This document shows, piece after piece, positions 1 to 64,000 of a DNA stretch of 64,000 nt (positions are counted from its first letter, which is position 1; each line of letters begins with the position of its first letter). Source of the DNA: Pseudooceanicola nanhaiensis DSM 18065 (GTDB taxonomy: Bacteria > Pseudomonadota > Alphaproteobacteria > Rhodobacterales > Rhodobacteraceae). Made by a program: the position numbers and the translations under genes. The DNA is taken from positions 838,288-902,287 of the forward strand of contig NZ_JHZF01000011.1 in NCBI RefSeq assembly GCF_000688295.1, given 5' to 3'. Below the pieces are notes generated by a model. The model was not told where the DNA came from. It saw only the letters and a list, made by a program, of their open reading frames with translations, and ran no database searches.

Positions 1-1004
1 GAGATCAGCTGCGTCACGAGGACGACGAAGACCGACACGACCGAGATGCCGAGCAGGAGGTCGATGTCGTTGTTGCCCGCCGCCTGCACCAGCGCCCAGC
101 CGAAGCCCTTGTAGTTGAAGAGCGTCTCGACGATCACCACGCCGTTCAGCAGCCAGGGAAACTGGAGCATGATGACCGTGAAGGGCGCGATGAGGGCGTT
201 CCGGAGCGCGTGTTTCATCACGATGTTCGGGAAGGCCACGCCCTTGAGCCGGGCGGTGCGGATGTATTGCGCGGTCATCACCTCGGCCATCGCGGCGCGG
301 GTCATCCGGGCGATGTAGCCCATGCCGTAGAGCGAGATCGTCAGGACCGGCAGGAAGAAGTTCTCGAAGGTGGCGTCGTTCATGGCGCTGGTGGCGGTGC
401 CCTTGAACCATTTCAGGCCCACCGTGGAAGAGGCGAAGACCGCGATCAGGATCACGCCCGAGACGTATTCCGGTGTCGCGGTGGTGGCGATCGAGAAGGT
501 GGAGAGGGTGCGGTCGGTGCGCGACCCTTCGCGCATCCCCGCCAGAACGCCCAGGATCAGCGCCGAGGGCACCATCAGCAGCATCACCCAGAACATCAGC
601 TTGCCGGTCAGCGCCAGCCGGGTGGAGATGATCGAGCTCACCTCCTCGCGGAAGACCCGGCTCTCGCCCCATTCGCCCTGCAGGATGCCGCAATAGGAGG
701 GCGCCTCGGCCGGATCGGTGCCCGCCGGGATGCAGCGCCCGGCGACGGTCTGGCCATCGGCATCTTCGCGCGTCCAGCCGGGCCAGGCACCCAGCCATTC
801 GCCGTAGCGGATCGCGAGGGGCTGTGCGAAGCCGTTGTTGCTCAGCCAGTTCTCGACCTCCTGGTCGCTCATCCGGCTGTTGCCTTCGTATTTCGCGACC
901 TTCTCGAGGTTCGGTTCGAGATTGGTCAGGAAGAAGACGATGAAGCTGAGGCAGAGCGCCGTCAGGATCATCGTCCCGGTCCTCCGCAAGAGGAAAAAGA
1001 CCAT
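1..1004 (-). CDS. Peptide-type ABC transporter permease (DppB/OppB family), C-terminus cut by window edge
   Basis: Inner-membrane permease of a binding-protein-dependent importer of the peptide/nickel/opine class. From an ATG at 1004 on the minus strand 334 codons stay open to the left edge. The protein begins with a membrane helix (MILTALCLSFIVFFLTNL), continues with an extracytoplasmic stretch of roughly 100 residues, and then shows several hydrophobic helices. A segment reading YIRTARLKGV lies where this family has its EAA loop, which contacts the ATPase. It sits about 110 nt downstream of a family 5 solute-binding protein on the same strand, so the two should form one import operon, with a second permease and ATPases expected beyond the edge. 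The substrate cannot be told from sequence. Confidence 0.93.
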   Translation of the reverse strand, partial: MVFFLLRRTGTMILTALCLSFIVFFLTNLEPNLEKVAKYEGNSRMSDQEVENWLSNNGFAQPLAIRYGEWLGAWPGWTREDADGQTVAGRCIPAGTDPAEAPSYCGILQGEWGESRVFREEVSSIISTRLALTGKLMFWVMLLMVPSALILGVLAGMREGSRTDRTLSTFSIATTATPEYVSGVILIAVFASSTVGLKWFKGTATSAMNDATFENFFLPVLTISLYGMGYIARMTRAAMAEVMTAQYIRTARLKGVAFPNIVMKHALRNALIAPFTVIMLQFPWLLNGVVIVETLFNYKGFGWALVQAAGNNDIDLLLGISVVSVFVVLVTQLI

Positions 1005-48089: not shown

Positions 48090-48179
48090 GGAGAGGTGCC
48101 GGAGTGGTCGAACGGGGCGGTCTCGAAAACCGTTGAGGGTGCAAGCCCTCCCAGGGTTCGAATCCCTGTCTCTCCGCCA
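48090..48179 (+). tRNA. tRNA-Ser (anticodon CGA)
   Basis: A class II tRNA of 90 nt. The acceptor stem GGAGAGG pairs with TCTCTCC (one G-T). The anticodon arm has loop CTCGAAA with anticodon CGA at 48124-48126. The long variable arm (GAGGGTGCAAGCCCTC) is typical of serine tRNAs. The T-arm reads CAGGGTTCGAATCCCTG and CCA is encoded at 48177-48179. It reads UCG codons, frequent in this GC-rich genome. Confidence 0.97.
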
Positions 48180-60363: not shown

Positions 60364-61395
60364 TCAGTCGAACATCGCCCTGAGGTCCACCGTCGAGCTC
60401 TTGCCGAGGTCCGCCTTGTGCGCCTCGAGGAACATCTCGGCCGAGAGCCGCCCGGCCGCCTTGAGCCGGTTCAGCAGGAACGGGTTCGGCACCAGCTTGG
60501 TCGCGACCGACAGCTCGGTCATCAGCTCGTCGTCCGAGATCATGTGCACGAGGACGTTCTTCATCTCGCCTTCCCGTACATAGCGGCGCACGATCAGGCG
60601 CTGGACGAACTCGATCGCGCGCAGCTCGCGCAGGAGCGAGGAGTTGAAGCTGATCTCGTTGATCCGGTTCTGGATCGCCTGAGGGCTCTTCGGCACCTCG
60701 TCGCGCACCAGCGGGTTGATGTTGACCACCACGACGTCGCCCGGCAGGTGCGGCGCGAAGAGCGGGAAGAGCGCCGGGTTGCCGGTATAGCCGCCGTCCC
60801 AGTAGGCCTCGGTCCTGCCGGTCACCGGATCGGGGATCTCGACCGCCTGGAACAGCGTCGGCAGGCAGGCCGAGGCGAGGATGGCGTCCGTGGTGATCGC
60901 CTCGCCCGAGAAGACGCGGATCTTGCCGGTGCGCACGTTGGTGGCGCAGACGAAGAGGTCGGGACCGCCCTCGCTGCAGACCTGTCCGTAATCGAACTCC
61001 TCCACCACCGGACGCAGCGGGTTGGTCCAGAACGGGCCGTAGGCATAGGGCGAGCTCATCCGCGAGACCGCGTCGGCGAAGGTATAGGGGAAGGAATACT
61101 CGAGCGCGCGCGAGACCTGGCCGGCGAGGCTCATGTTGCCGGCCATCCAGAGCGGCAGCCGCATGTCGGCCACCGCGCCCATCCGGGCCCAGAGCGCGTC
61201 GAGCGCCCCCCGCGCCCCCTCGCGGCCCGCGGCGGCCATGCCCGCCTTGAAGGCGGCCCCGTTCAGCGCGCCGGCGGAGGTGCCGGTGATCGCGGCGACC
61301 TCAACGTCGTCCTCGTCGAGCAGACGGTCGAGCACGCCCCAGGTGTAGGCGCCATGCGCGCCGCCGCCCTGGAGGGCAAGGTTGATGCGGATCAT
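60364..61395 (-). CDS. Patatin-like phospholipase
   Basis: Serine acyl hydrolase of 343 residues. The oxyanion loop is QGGGAHGAYTWG at residues 9-20, the nucleophile Ser40 lies in GTSAG, and the catalytic Asp200 in WDGG (199-202) is present. There is no signal peptide, so it acts in the cytosol or at the inner face of membranes or storage granules. It lies downstream of bdhA in the same direction. In related bacteria patatin proteins have been found with polyhydroxybutyrate metabolism genes; a role in lipid or PHB turnover is therefore likely but not shown. Confidence 0.92.
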   Translation of the reverse strand: MIRINLALQGGGAHGAYTWGVLDRLLDEDDVEVAAITGTSAGALNGAAFKAGMAAAGREGARGALDALWARMGAVADMRLPLWMAGNMSLAGQVSRALEYSFPYTFADAVSRMSSPYAYGPFWTNPLRPVVEEFDYGQVCSEGGPDLFVCATNVRTGKIRVFSGEAITTDAILASACLPTLFQAVEIPDPVTGRTEAYWDGGYTGNPALFPLFAPHLPGDVVVVNINPLVRDEVPKSPQAIQNRINEISFNSSLLRELRAIEFVQRLIVRRYVREGEMKNVLVHMISDDELMTELSVATKLVPNPFLLNRLKAAGRLSAEMFLEAHKADLGKSSTVDLRAMFD

Positions 61396-61498: not shown

Positions 61499-62272
61499 TC
61501 AGAGCGCCGTCCACCCGCCGTCGACGCTGATCGTGGTGCCGGTGATCTGCTCGGCCGCCGCGGAGCAGAGGAAACTGGCGACGCCGCCGATCTGCTCCAC
61601 CGTCGCGAACTGCTTGGAGGGCTGGCGTTGCAGGATCACGTCGCGCAGCGCATCCTCGCGGCTGAGGTCGTATTTCTTCATCGTGTCGGGGATCTGCGCC
61701 TCGACCAGCGGGGTGTGCACGTAGCCGGGGCAGATCGCATTGGCGGTGATCGGCTCTTCCGCGGTTTCCAGGGCGACGACCTTGGTCATGCCGACGATGC
61801 CGTGCTTGGCGGTCACATAGGCCGACTTGTAGGGCGAGGCGGTGAGACCATGCGCCGAGGCGACGTTGATGACCCGGCCCCAGCCCGCCTTGCGCATCAT
61901 CGGCAGTGCCACGGCGGTGGTATGGAAGGCCGAGGACATGTTGATCGCGATGATCGCGTCCCATTTCTCGACCGGGAACTCGTCGATGGCCGCGACATGC
62001 TGGATCCCGGCGTTGTTCACGAGGATGTCGCAGGCACCCGCCGTCTCCACCAATGCGCGGCACTGGTCGGCCTTCGACATGTCGGCCTGGACATAGCGCG
62101 CCTTCACCCCGAACTCGGAGGCGATTCCCTCCGCGATTCCGTGGTCTTCCTGCGAATCGCTGAACGAGTTGACGACGATGTCCGCCCCCTGCCCGGCCAG
62201 GGCGCGGGCGATTCCCAGCCCGATGCCGGAGGTCGAGCCGGTGATGATTGCTGTCTTGCCGCTGAGTGACAT
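61499..62272 (-). CDS. bdhA: 3-hydroxybutyrate dehydrogenase
   Basis: Short-chain dehydrogenase interconverting 3-hydroxybutyrate and acetoacetate with NAD, used when PHB is mobilised. The protein has 257 residues. The cofactor motif TGSTSGIG is at residues 11-18, NNAG near 86-89, and the catalytic triad is Ser139, Tyr152 and Lys156 (YVTAK). The C-terminal part contains the bdhA-type segment CPGYVHTPLVEAQIPD and LQRQPSKQFATVEQIGGVA. The promoter region holds a TGC-rich dyad and, further up, a terminator. Confidence 0.95.
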   Translation of the reverse strand: MSLSGKTAIITGSTSGIGLGIARALAGQGADIVVNSFSDSQEDHGIAEGIASEFGVKARYVQADMSKADQCRALVETAGACDILVNNAGIQHVAAIDEFPVEKWDAIIAINMSSAFHTTAVALPMMRKAGWGRVINVASAHGLTASPYKSAYVTAKHGIVGMTKVVALETAEEPITANAICPGYVHTPLVEAQIPDTMKKYDLSREDALRDVILQRQPSKQFATVEQIGGVASFLCSAAAEQITGTTISVDGGWTAL

Positions 62273-62318
62273 GGCGGGTCTCCTGGATGTTTTCGCCCAA
62301 TGAATATTGGTGCTGCAG

Positions 62319-62331
62319 GTGCAAAATGCAC
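62319..62331. promoter_or_regulatory. TGC-rich dyad in the bdhA promoter region
   Basis: GTGCA-AAA-TGCAC forms a perfect 13-bp dyad, 47-59 nt upstream of the bdhA start, next to CTGCAG (62313-62318). PhaR, the PHB regulator of Paracoccus and relatives, is known to bind TGC-rich repeats, so this is a possible PhaR site. Confidence 0.4.
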
Positions 62332-62391: not shown

Positions 62392-62420
62392 AAAAAAAAC
62401 GCCGGCACAAGGCCGGCGTT
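62392..62420 (-). terminator. Strong Rho-independent terminator on the minus strand
   Basis: Read on the minus strand, AACGCCGGC (62420-62412) pairs with GCCGGCGTT (62406-62398) over a five-base loop and runs into eight T residues. No coding gene ends here: bdhA has not yet started, so it ends a short upstream transcript. Confidence 0.92.
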
Positions 62421-62467
62421 CAGTTATTGAGGCAGGTTTCATACAGGCAAGAAACCTATCGAGCAGT
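62392..62467 (-). ncRNA. Candidate small RNA or attenuated bdhA leader
   Basis: About 76 nt between a good promoter and the terminator at 62392-62420. The predicted first base is A at 62467, seven bases after the -10. The RNA would have a 5' stem AGGTTTC-N10-GAAACCT (62457-62451 with 62440-62434), a single-stranded linker GCCTCAATAACTG-like region, and the terminator hairpin. Two readings fit: an independent sRNA, or a leader with premature termination controlling bdhA, whose start is 120 nt downstream on the same strand. An ATG in the loop (62442) opens a frame that runs through the terminator and is unlikely to be a real gene. Confidence 0.65.
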
Positions 62468-62473
62468 GCACCC

Positions 62474-62502
62474 TTTATAAGCGCTCCTACGCTCGTGTCC
62501 AA
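62474..62502 (-). promoter_or_regulatory. Sigma-70-type promoter for the short minus-strand transcript
   Basis: On the minus strand TTGGAC (62502-62497) and TATAAA (62479-62474) are separated by exactly 17 bases. Both hexamers are close to consensus, and the match is the best promoter I see in the window. Confidence 0.7.
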
Positions 62503-62581
62503 GCGTAAAGTTTGCGATCCCCCCGCTGCACAGATAAAAACATCGCGAATAAACAGGGATCAGGGCGGCATTGTTGCGGAT

Positions 62582-64000
62582 ATGCGACCGGTAATTTTCT
62601 TCGTCAGGCTGATGGTTTGCAGCCTCTTGCTGATCCTCGGCGCAATCGCTAGCGCGCAGGCCGAGCCCGCCCATGGCATAGCTATGTATGGCGCCCCCGC
62701 GCTTCCACCGGATTTTGTGGCCCTCCCCTACGTGAACCCCGATGCGCCCAAGGGCGGGCGCGTGGTGACCGGCAATACCGGCGGCTTCGACAGCGTGAAC
62801 CCTTTCGTCCAGAAAGGCACACCGCCGTGGCAATTGCGCTACCTGACCCACGAGAGCCTGCTCTACCGCTCGCAGGACGAACCCTTCACGCTCTACGGCC
62901 TGCTGGCCGAATCGGTCGAGGTGCCCGAGGACCGGTCCTGGGTGGAATTCACCCTCAGGCCTGAGGCGCGTTTCTCCGATGGCAGCCCGGTGACCGTCGA
63001 GGACGTGATCTGGTCGCTCGAGACGCTGGGGACGCAGGGCAACGCCCGCTACCTGACGTTCTGGACCCAGGTGGACGCGATCGAGCAGACCGGCCCGCGC
63101 AGCCTCAGGATCACCTTCCGCGATCCCGACCGTGAGCTGCCGCTGATCGCCGGGCTGCGCCCGATCCTCAAGAAGGCGCAGTGGCAGGGCAAGACCTTCG
63201 CCGAGGCCACGCTGGAGGAGGCCCCGATCGGCACCGCGCCCTACGTGATCGAGAGCTTCGAGGCCTCGCGCAACGTCGTGCTGAAACGCAACCCCGACTA
63301 CTGGGGCAAGGACCTGCCGATCCGGCGCGGGACCAACAATTTCGACGAGATCCGGATCGAGTTCTACGGCGACACCAACGTGCTCTTCGAAGCGTTCAAG
63401 GCGGGCGAGATCTCGTATCTGCGGGAATTCAACGCCGAGAAATGGGCGCGCGATTACGATTTTCCCGCCATGCAGGACGGCCGTGTGCTGCAGTCGGAAT
63501 TCGCCGACGGCACCCCCTCGGGCATCACCGGCTTCGTCTTCAACACCCGCCGCCCGCCCTTCGACGACATCCGGGTCCGCGACGCGCTGATCCACGCCTT
63601 CAACTTCGAGTTCATCAACGAGACGATGACCGGCTCGCGCCAGCCGCGCATCACCTCGTATTTCTCGGGCTCCGATCTGGGGATGCAGCCCGGCCCGGCG
63701 GATCCGGCCGTGGCCGCGCTGCTGGAGCCCTTCAAGGACGAGATCCCCGAAGAGGCGCTGACCGGATACGCACTGCCGGTTGCCGACGGCTCCGCCCGCA
63801 ACCGCGGCAACCTCCGCAAGGCGATGGCGCTGCTGAAGGACGCGGGCTTCACGATCGAGCGCGGTCGCATGATGAGGCCGGACGGCACGCCCTTCACCTT
63901 CGAGATCCTGCTGCGGCAGGGCTCGACCGAGCAGATCTCGATCATCGACCTTTATCGCGACGCGCTGTCCCGGCTGGGGATCGGCGTGAAGGTCTCGACC
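62582..64000 (+). CDS. YejA-type ABC transporter solute-binding protein, C-terminus beyond window edge
   Basis: Periplasmic family 5 binding protein of the YejA (microcin C / peptide) branch. Starting at ATG 62582, 473 codons run open to the edge. A signal peptide covers the first ~31 residues (hydrophobic VRLMVCSLLLILGAIASAQA). The mature N-terminus HGIAMYGAPALPPDFVALPY and the following NPDAPKGGRVV are the YejA hallmark, with ALIHAFNFEFINETMT further on. The start lacks a strong Shine-Dalgarno (GCGGAT). A yejBEF-like permease and ATPase set is expected downstream but is not visible. Confidence 0.92.
   Translation, partial: MRPVIFFVRLMVCSLLLILGAIASAQAEPAHGIAMYGAPALPPDFVALPYVNPDAPKGGRVVTGNTGGFDSVNPFVQKGTPPWQLRYLTHESLLYRSQDEPFTLYGLLAESVEVPEDRSWVEFTLRPEARFSDGSPVTVEDVIWSLETLGTQGNARYLTFWTQVDAIEQTGPRSLRITFRDPDRELPLIAGLRPILKKAQWQGKTFAEATLEEAPIGTAPYVIESFEASRNVVLKRNPDYWGKDLPIRRGTNNFDEIRIEFYGDTNVLFEAFKAGEISYLREFNAEKWARDYDFPAMQDGRVLQSEFADGTPSGITGFVFNTRRPPFDDIRVRDALIHAFNFEFINETMTGSRQPRITSYFSGSDLGMQPGPADPAVAALLEPFKDEIPEEALTGYALPVADGSARNRGNLRKAMALLKDAGFTIERGRMMRPDGTPFTFEILLRQGSTEQISIIDLYRDALSRLGIGVKVST

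Follow-up and report, generated by a model that had tools for sequence, protein, structure and literature searches.

A small RNA gene conserved across the Rhodobacteraceae and neighboring bdhA is most likely an ortholog of StsR

The window analyzed here, a 64,000-nucleotide stretch of the Pseudooceanicola nanhaiensis DSM 18065 genome, carries near its right-hand end a compact promoter-hairpin-terminator unit on the minus strand, set between bdhA and a divergently oriented gene for a solute-binding protein. The features of this region are as follows.

61499 to 62272, minus strand: bdhA, D-3-hydroxybutyrate dehydrogenase (PDB 1wmb, E 2.5e-97; Pfam SDR families)
62311 to 62324, minus strand: TTGCACCTGCAGCA box, 38 nt ahead of the bdhA ATG and past the terminator (from a pattern in relatives)
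62392 to 62468, minus strand: sRNA gene, putative StsR ortholog (covariance model R1, invariant columns, fold z −4.47)
62397 to 62421, minus strand: intrinsic terminator stem-loop of 10 pairs (terminator scan), with eight T at 62392 to 62399
62429 to 62450, minus strand: UUGCCUGUAUGAAACCUGCCUC, 22 nt predicted to pair with the genome's own mraZ leader at its E1 and E2 blocks, with one bulged leader base (L089 duplex)
62433 to 62458, minus strand: 5′ hairpin with loop UUGCCUGUAU (fold: eight pairs, closing U-G)
62460 to 62466, minus strand: CUGCUCG, predicted to pair with leader block E4, GCGAGCAG (duplex prediction, 19 family leaders and genome G096)
62474 to 62479, minus strand: −10 element TATAAA, 17 nt from the −35 element
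62497 to 62502, minus strand: −35 element TTGGAC (family consensus CTTGGA)
62582 to 64000, plus strand, running off the window: extracellular solute-binding protein, family 5 (PF00496, E 4.9e-65)

A preliminary description of this DNA had pointed to a minus-strand TTGGAC-N17-TATAAA promoter, a 7-bp hairpin, and a terminator with eight T residues. The promoter lies at 62502 to 62497 and 62479 to 62474, and the terminator is present as a 10-pair stem (62421 to 62397) running into its T tract (62399 to 62392); the hairpin is also there, with eight pairs rather than seven once the closing U-G is counted. The predicted RNA is ≈72 to 77 nt long, with a start placed near 62468 to 62466 and an end within the T run. 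Folding of 62468 to 62392 gave −26.3 kcal/mol (z = −4.47), an energy equaled by none of 200 shuffles. Our promoter scan listed no promoter at the sRNA because its rule accepts only −10 elements whose last base is T, and TATAAA ends in A. The terminator alone is not strong evidence for a gene, since the scan found four terminator-like sites in 4 kb, this one among them, against 2.3 expected.

To see how widely the unit occurs, we searched relatives with a covariance model. Covariance model R1 matches 384 of 394 family genomes (393 genera) and 345 of the 347 of good quality; by our own count from the result table, nine family genomes have two matches each. A class-wide draw of 289 genomes returned four strong matches, all in family members, as well as weak ones (28.9 to 35.3 bits) in 5 of the 285 non-family genomes. 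In blastn searches with a 121-nt query, all 36 family genomes gave a match (the genome itself, 21 of the same genus, and 14 of other genera), as did 1 of 24 other genomes of the class, at the terminator end only. The locus alignment, built from the best 30 of the 36 family genomes, shows that the sRNA is far better conserved than its flanks, with 41 contiguous columns of its 5′ part invariant in all 21 distinct rows. This invariance is not absolute, because two Paracoccus loci are one base short at the end of the 41-nt core. The terminator stem covaries: three of its pairs carry compensating changes (11 cells), which none of 500 shuffles matched. Because all eight pairs of the 5′ hairpin are unvarying in the 21 rows, covariation can neither support nor contradict that element. 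Loss of the promoter and hairpin in relatives had been named as the pattern that would speak against the unit; we found the opposite, as both are kept. With its own promoter, its own terminator, and near-universal presence in the family, the unit has the sequence features of the free small RNA that had been suggested, and we conclude from these features that it is real and is a predicted sRNA gene.

Named carriers of the sRNA were identified as well. A scan with a G096-type pattern found two named carriers, Fuscibacter oryzae and a Rhodobacteraceae MAG (two records), and the sRNA also occurs on replicons of Paracoccus versutus, P. ferrooxidans, and P. pantotrophus. All four matches in the plasmid collection are on large Paracoccus replicons, and an exact scan of viral contigs gave no match. 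The passages available of one report describe a Paracoccus denitrificans RNA, "Intergenic 134," that is 84 nt long, conserved in Rhodobacteraceae, and found in the same context in Rhodobacter sphaeroides (PMC5107571). Because the four plasmid matches sit on large Paracoccus replicons, Intergenic 134 could be the sRNA described here; the Streptomyces matches listed for it in those passages speak against that identity.

The loop of the 5′ hairpin contains an ATG that opens a frame reading MKPASIT, and this start is conserved, as a small coding gene would require. A stop, however, is found in only part of the 21 rows, with the frame then varying or entering the T run, and third codon positions are unvarying within the 41-nt core. 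We consider a coding gene extremely improbable, and the small peptide was rejected on its variable frame and stop across the 21 rows.

We also asked whether the sRNA belongs to a described family. Rfam 15 gave no match at the gathering score to the sRNA in the window, nor for loci L111, L116, and L089 (the last being the mraZ leader of the window's own genome). Membership in SorX (RF02784) or in the alphaproteobacterial mmgR/suhB sRNA family (RF00519) would account for the overall shape, since SorX has a 5′ hairpin, a CCUC-containing linker, and a terminator, as the sRNA does, and mmgR is similarly built; both gave sub-threshold matches. These scores, however, are 24.1 bits against the 46.6 needed for SorX and 18.9 against 41 for mmgR, and we give membership in either almost no credence. 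SorX, Hrs13, and mmgR were all set aside as below the gathering score, and their weak matches reflect shared shape. One source, in the part available to us, connects mmgR with PHB in Sinorhizobium (PMC12542648). A literature search with the loop sequence gave unrelated primer papers throughout the matches listed (20 of 21), and the main text passages of a paper on Ruegeria pomeroyi sRNAs contained nothing tied to the sRNA locus (PMC4809877). Elsewhere in the window, positions 200 to 378 (plus strand) match Cis52_sRNA (RF02647), a Ruegeria antisense RNA family, at 148.6 bits against the 56 needed, and 48090 to 48176 (plus strand) is a tRNA gene.

The bdhA ATG, at 62272, is located ≈119 nt past the sRNA terminator, in agreement with the 120 nt given earlier, and this arrangement had led to the proposal that the unit is a leader whose terminator gates bdhA as an attenuator or riboswitch. 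We surveyed the neighbors of 65 sRNA loci from 63 genomes, in which L002/L062 and L019/L033 are repeats; the sample is not random, because it includes the 30 top-scoring loci of the covariance search. As a leader would require, 56 of the 65 loci have bdhA as the next gene downstream, in the same orientation. The remaining nine keep the sRNA, but no bdhA was found within their 1.5-kb flanks, and across the 56 loci the gap from terminator to bdhA ATG ranges from 44 to 510 nt. The terminator stem is a plain covarying hairpin. The minimum-energy and centroid folds of 62468 to 62270 both keep it, and the minimum-energy fold of the leader up to the bdhA ATG contains no alternative terminator pairing.

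Moreover, bdhA often has a separate box of its own. The pattern T[TC]GCN3[TC]GC[AG]GCA occurs 25 to 79 nt ahead of the bdhA ATG in 37 of 56 loci and in none of 1120 shuffled gaps, a count that is not independent because 16 of these very loci supplied the pattern; it is missing in the other 19, G096 included. The box suggests a separate, putative bdhA promoter in many family members. Its form in the window (TTGC-N3-TGCAGCA) resembles the PhaR motif, given as YGCRNYGCR in the passages available (PMC12542648), with unlike spacing, and because of that difference in spacing we name no regulator. Taken together, the nine loci where bdhA was not found, the variable gap, and the separate box weigh against the attenuator, which we regard as very improbable. 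Rather, bdhA does not appear to be part of the sRNA unit and is a bystander, although transcripts started at the sRNA promoter may read on into it. Directly downstream of bdhA, a patatin-like protein is encoded at 60364 to 61395 (minus strand; PF01734, E 6e-17); by position only, it is a possible partner in storage-polymer use.

On its other side, the sRNA is flanked by the divergent solute-binding protein gene in 61 of 65 loci; in the other four, this gene was not found within the 1.5-kb flanks. At 62512 to 62540 (plus strand), the back of the sRNA promoter in relatives looks like a divergent promoter, TTGAAA-17-TAnnnT, directed toward the solute-binding protein gene; in the window itself, this promoter-like copy (TTGCGA, TAAAAA) is weaker.

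Columns of the sRNA promoter were counted over 64 distinct upstream sequences. The −35 element reads C in 61, T in 64, T in 62, G in 52, G in 51, and A in 45; the −10 element begins with TATA in all 64, the next base is A in 61, and a GC stands two bases ahead, giving the pattern GC-N-TATAA. In the passages available, published RpoHI and RpoHII promoters share TTG, and RpoHII promoters have an excess of C at −14 and of T at −13 (PMC3441632). With TTG at −35 and C followed by T ahead of TATAA, the combination of CTTGGA and GC-N-TATAA fits these features as judged by eye, and the promoter may be one for RpoH-type sigma factors.

An sRNA of this kind has been described in R. sphaeroides: StsR, a stress RNA that acts as a brake on cell division through its pairing to the dcw leader. 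According to the parts of one report we could draw on, StsR is 72 nt long, depends on RpoHI/RpoHII, and is strongly induced in stationary phase; it takes its name from binding UpsM, a shortened RNA derived from the dcw leader ahead of mraZ (PMC8307010). Because StsR is named for this pairing, we searched upstream of mraZ for sequences complementary to the sRNA. Three or four ordered blocks of the mraZ/dcw leader, E1 to E4, have an antisense match in the sRNA: CUGCCU of the sRNA is complementary to E1 (AGGCAG), its UGCCUGUAUG to E2 (CATACAGGCA), and, in most relatives, its GGUUUCU to E3 (AGAGATC), with the E4 match as given above. In the window's own genome, the duplex with the leader reaches −50.0 kcal/mol, with 22 paired nucleotides and one bulge. 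When the sRNA core was shuffled 1000 times, no shuffle reached this energy; the test is favorable because the 206-nt piece of leader used was chosen around the match.

The match recurs in relatives. At the equivalent position, an E2 10-mer core of the TACAGGCA type is present with at most one mismatch in 14 of 20 family mraZ leaders and with at most two in 18 of 20; among 11 outgroup loci it is found in none with at most one mismatch and in six, somewhere, with two. In duplex predictions, which ignore the internal structure of either RNA, the best duplex also sits there in 13 of 19 family leaders, and E3 takes part in 12 of the 13; in the other six leaders the best duplex lies elsewhere. Over 1.5 kb, three of four leaders tested beat 100 shuffles; for the fourth, L097, at least 1 of the 100 equaled the duplex. 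The mraZ leaders L078 and L079 (2 of 20), from two related genomes, contain no antisense match. The genomes of L078 and L079 still carry the sRNA (L018 and L017). From these complementarities, we deduce that the putative partner of the sRNA is the mraZ/dcw leader, the source of UpsM and a separate locus and RNA. The suggested tie to 3-hydroxybutyrate metabolism loses its support together with the attenuator.

To compare the blocks with the published cleavage of UpsM, we turned to genome G096. A 65-residue stretch of its CoxI is 100% identical to a PDB chain, which we take to be that of R. sphaeroides, and the genome has one copy of the sRNA with the same neighbor genes. As reported in the sections available, UpsM is 206 nt long, RNase E yields a 130-nt 3′ fragment, and the cut needs Hfq and RpoHI or RpoHII (PMC5089854). 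We placed UpsM in G096 using the published 268 nt from the UpsM start to mraZ, taking the GTG of L116 as the start codon. The blocks then fall at nucleotides 53 to 58 (E1), 60 to 71 (E2), 90 to 96 (E3), and 106 to 113 (E4), and the published 206-to-130-nt processing puts the cut at about nucleotide 76/77, between E2 and E3. The main blocks thus flank the estimated cut, E2 ending at nucleotide 71 and E4 starting at nucleotide 106. The G096 duplex has an energy of −40.3 kcal/mol, reached by 6 of 1000 shuffles, and folding the two strands together is 11.3 kcal/mol more favorable than folding each alone. Its lowest-energy form comprises E1, E2, and E4, with a 4-bp alternative across the estimated cut in place of E3, which lies outside the lowest-energy duplex both here and in the window's own genome. 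This predicted layout of the blocks around the estimated cut matches StsR.

We therefore weighed whether the sRNA is StsR itself or another RNA of similar habit. Like StsR, an orphan RNA of 72 nt, the sRNA is predicted to be an orphan of ≈72 to 77 nt; it has complementarity to UpsM and the dcw leader, a candidate RpoH promoter as judged by eye, and a single copy in the R. sphaeroides-like G096. StsR was described in R. sphaeroides, whereas the sRNA here comes from a different organism and is near-universal in the family sample. Another target of StsR is rpoE mRNA, where pairing begins 10 nt past the GTG; rpoE-chrR was not found in the G096 DNA searched. The RNA could instead be a conserved trans-acting sRNA other than StsR, either a second RNA pairing with the mraZ leader or one with its main targets elsewhere: we found no tie between StsR's former name, RSs0827, and this locus, 2 of 20 leaders are without a match, and 41 invariant nucleotides exceed the seeming need of one target that tolerates changes. 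Against this, StsR is, in the passages available, the one named partner of UpsM cleavage and has nearly the same length, and the block layout fits the estimated cleavage point. We consider a different sRNA unlikely, if worth keeping in mind. With good confidence, we read the gene as encoding a free trans-acting sRNA that is most likely the ortholog of R. sphaeroides StsR, the name resting on likeness of description rather than of sequence. A literature search for StsR with Rhodobacteraceae found no paper; the main StsR paper lies outside the reach of that search, and the conservation may have been published.

On this StsR reading, we propose the following model. The sRNA would be switched on by sigma factors of the RpoH type when cells are stressed or enter stationary phase. 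The 5′ end of the sRNA, its loop, and the 3′ strand of its stem would open and pair with the leader blocks, both in UpsM and in read-through dcw mRNA, so that RNase E could reach the leader segment lying between them. Cutting of UpsM and dcw mRNA would then slow cell division, and bdhA would be transcribed apart from the sRNA.

If correct, this removes the proposed link to 3-hydroxybutyrate metabolism and gives the family an annotatable sRNA gene that has no Rfam 15 gathering-score match. The StsR literature found here covers one species, and the family-wide map presented here would make the RNA a comparative system: the sRNA is nearly constant, the leader shows slight variation, and which leader blocks must stay can be predicted from the published mechanism. 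It is quite possible, and we advance this tentatively, that across the family, marine roseobacters included, a near-invariant stress RNA and matching dcw-leader blocks form a conserved brake on cell division, and that, because 41 nt are invariant, the RNA has many targets beyond UpsM and rpoE. Were there many such targets, the sRNA would be a core growth-arrest regulator of the family.
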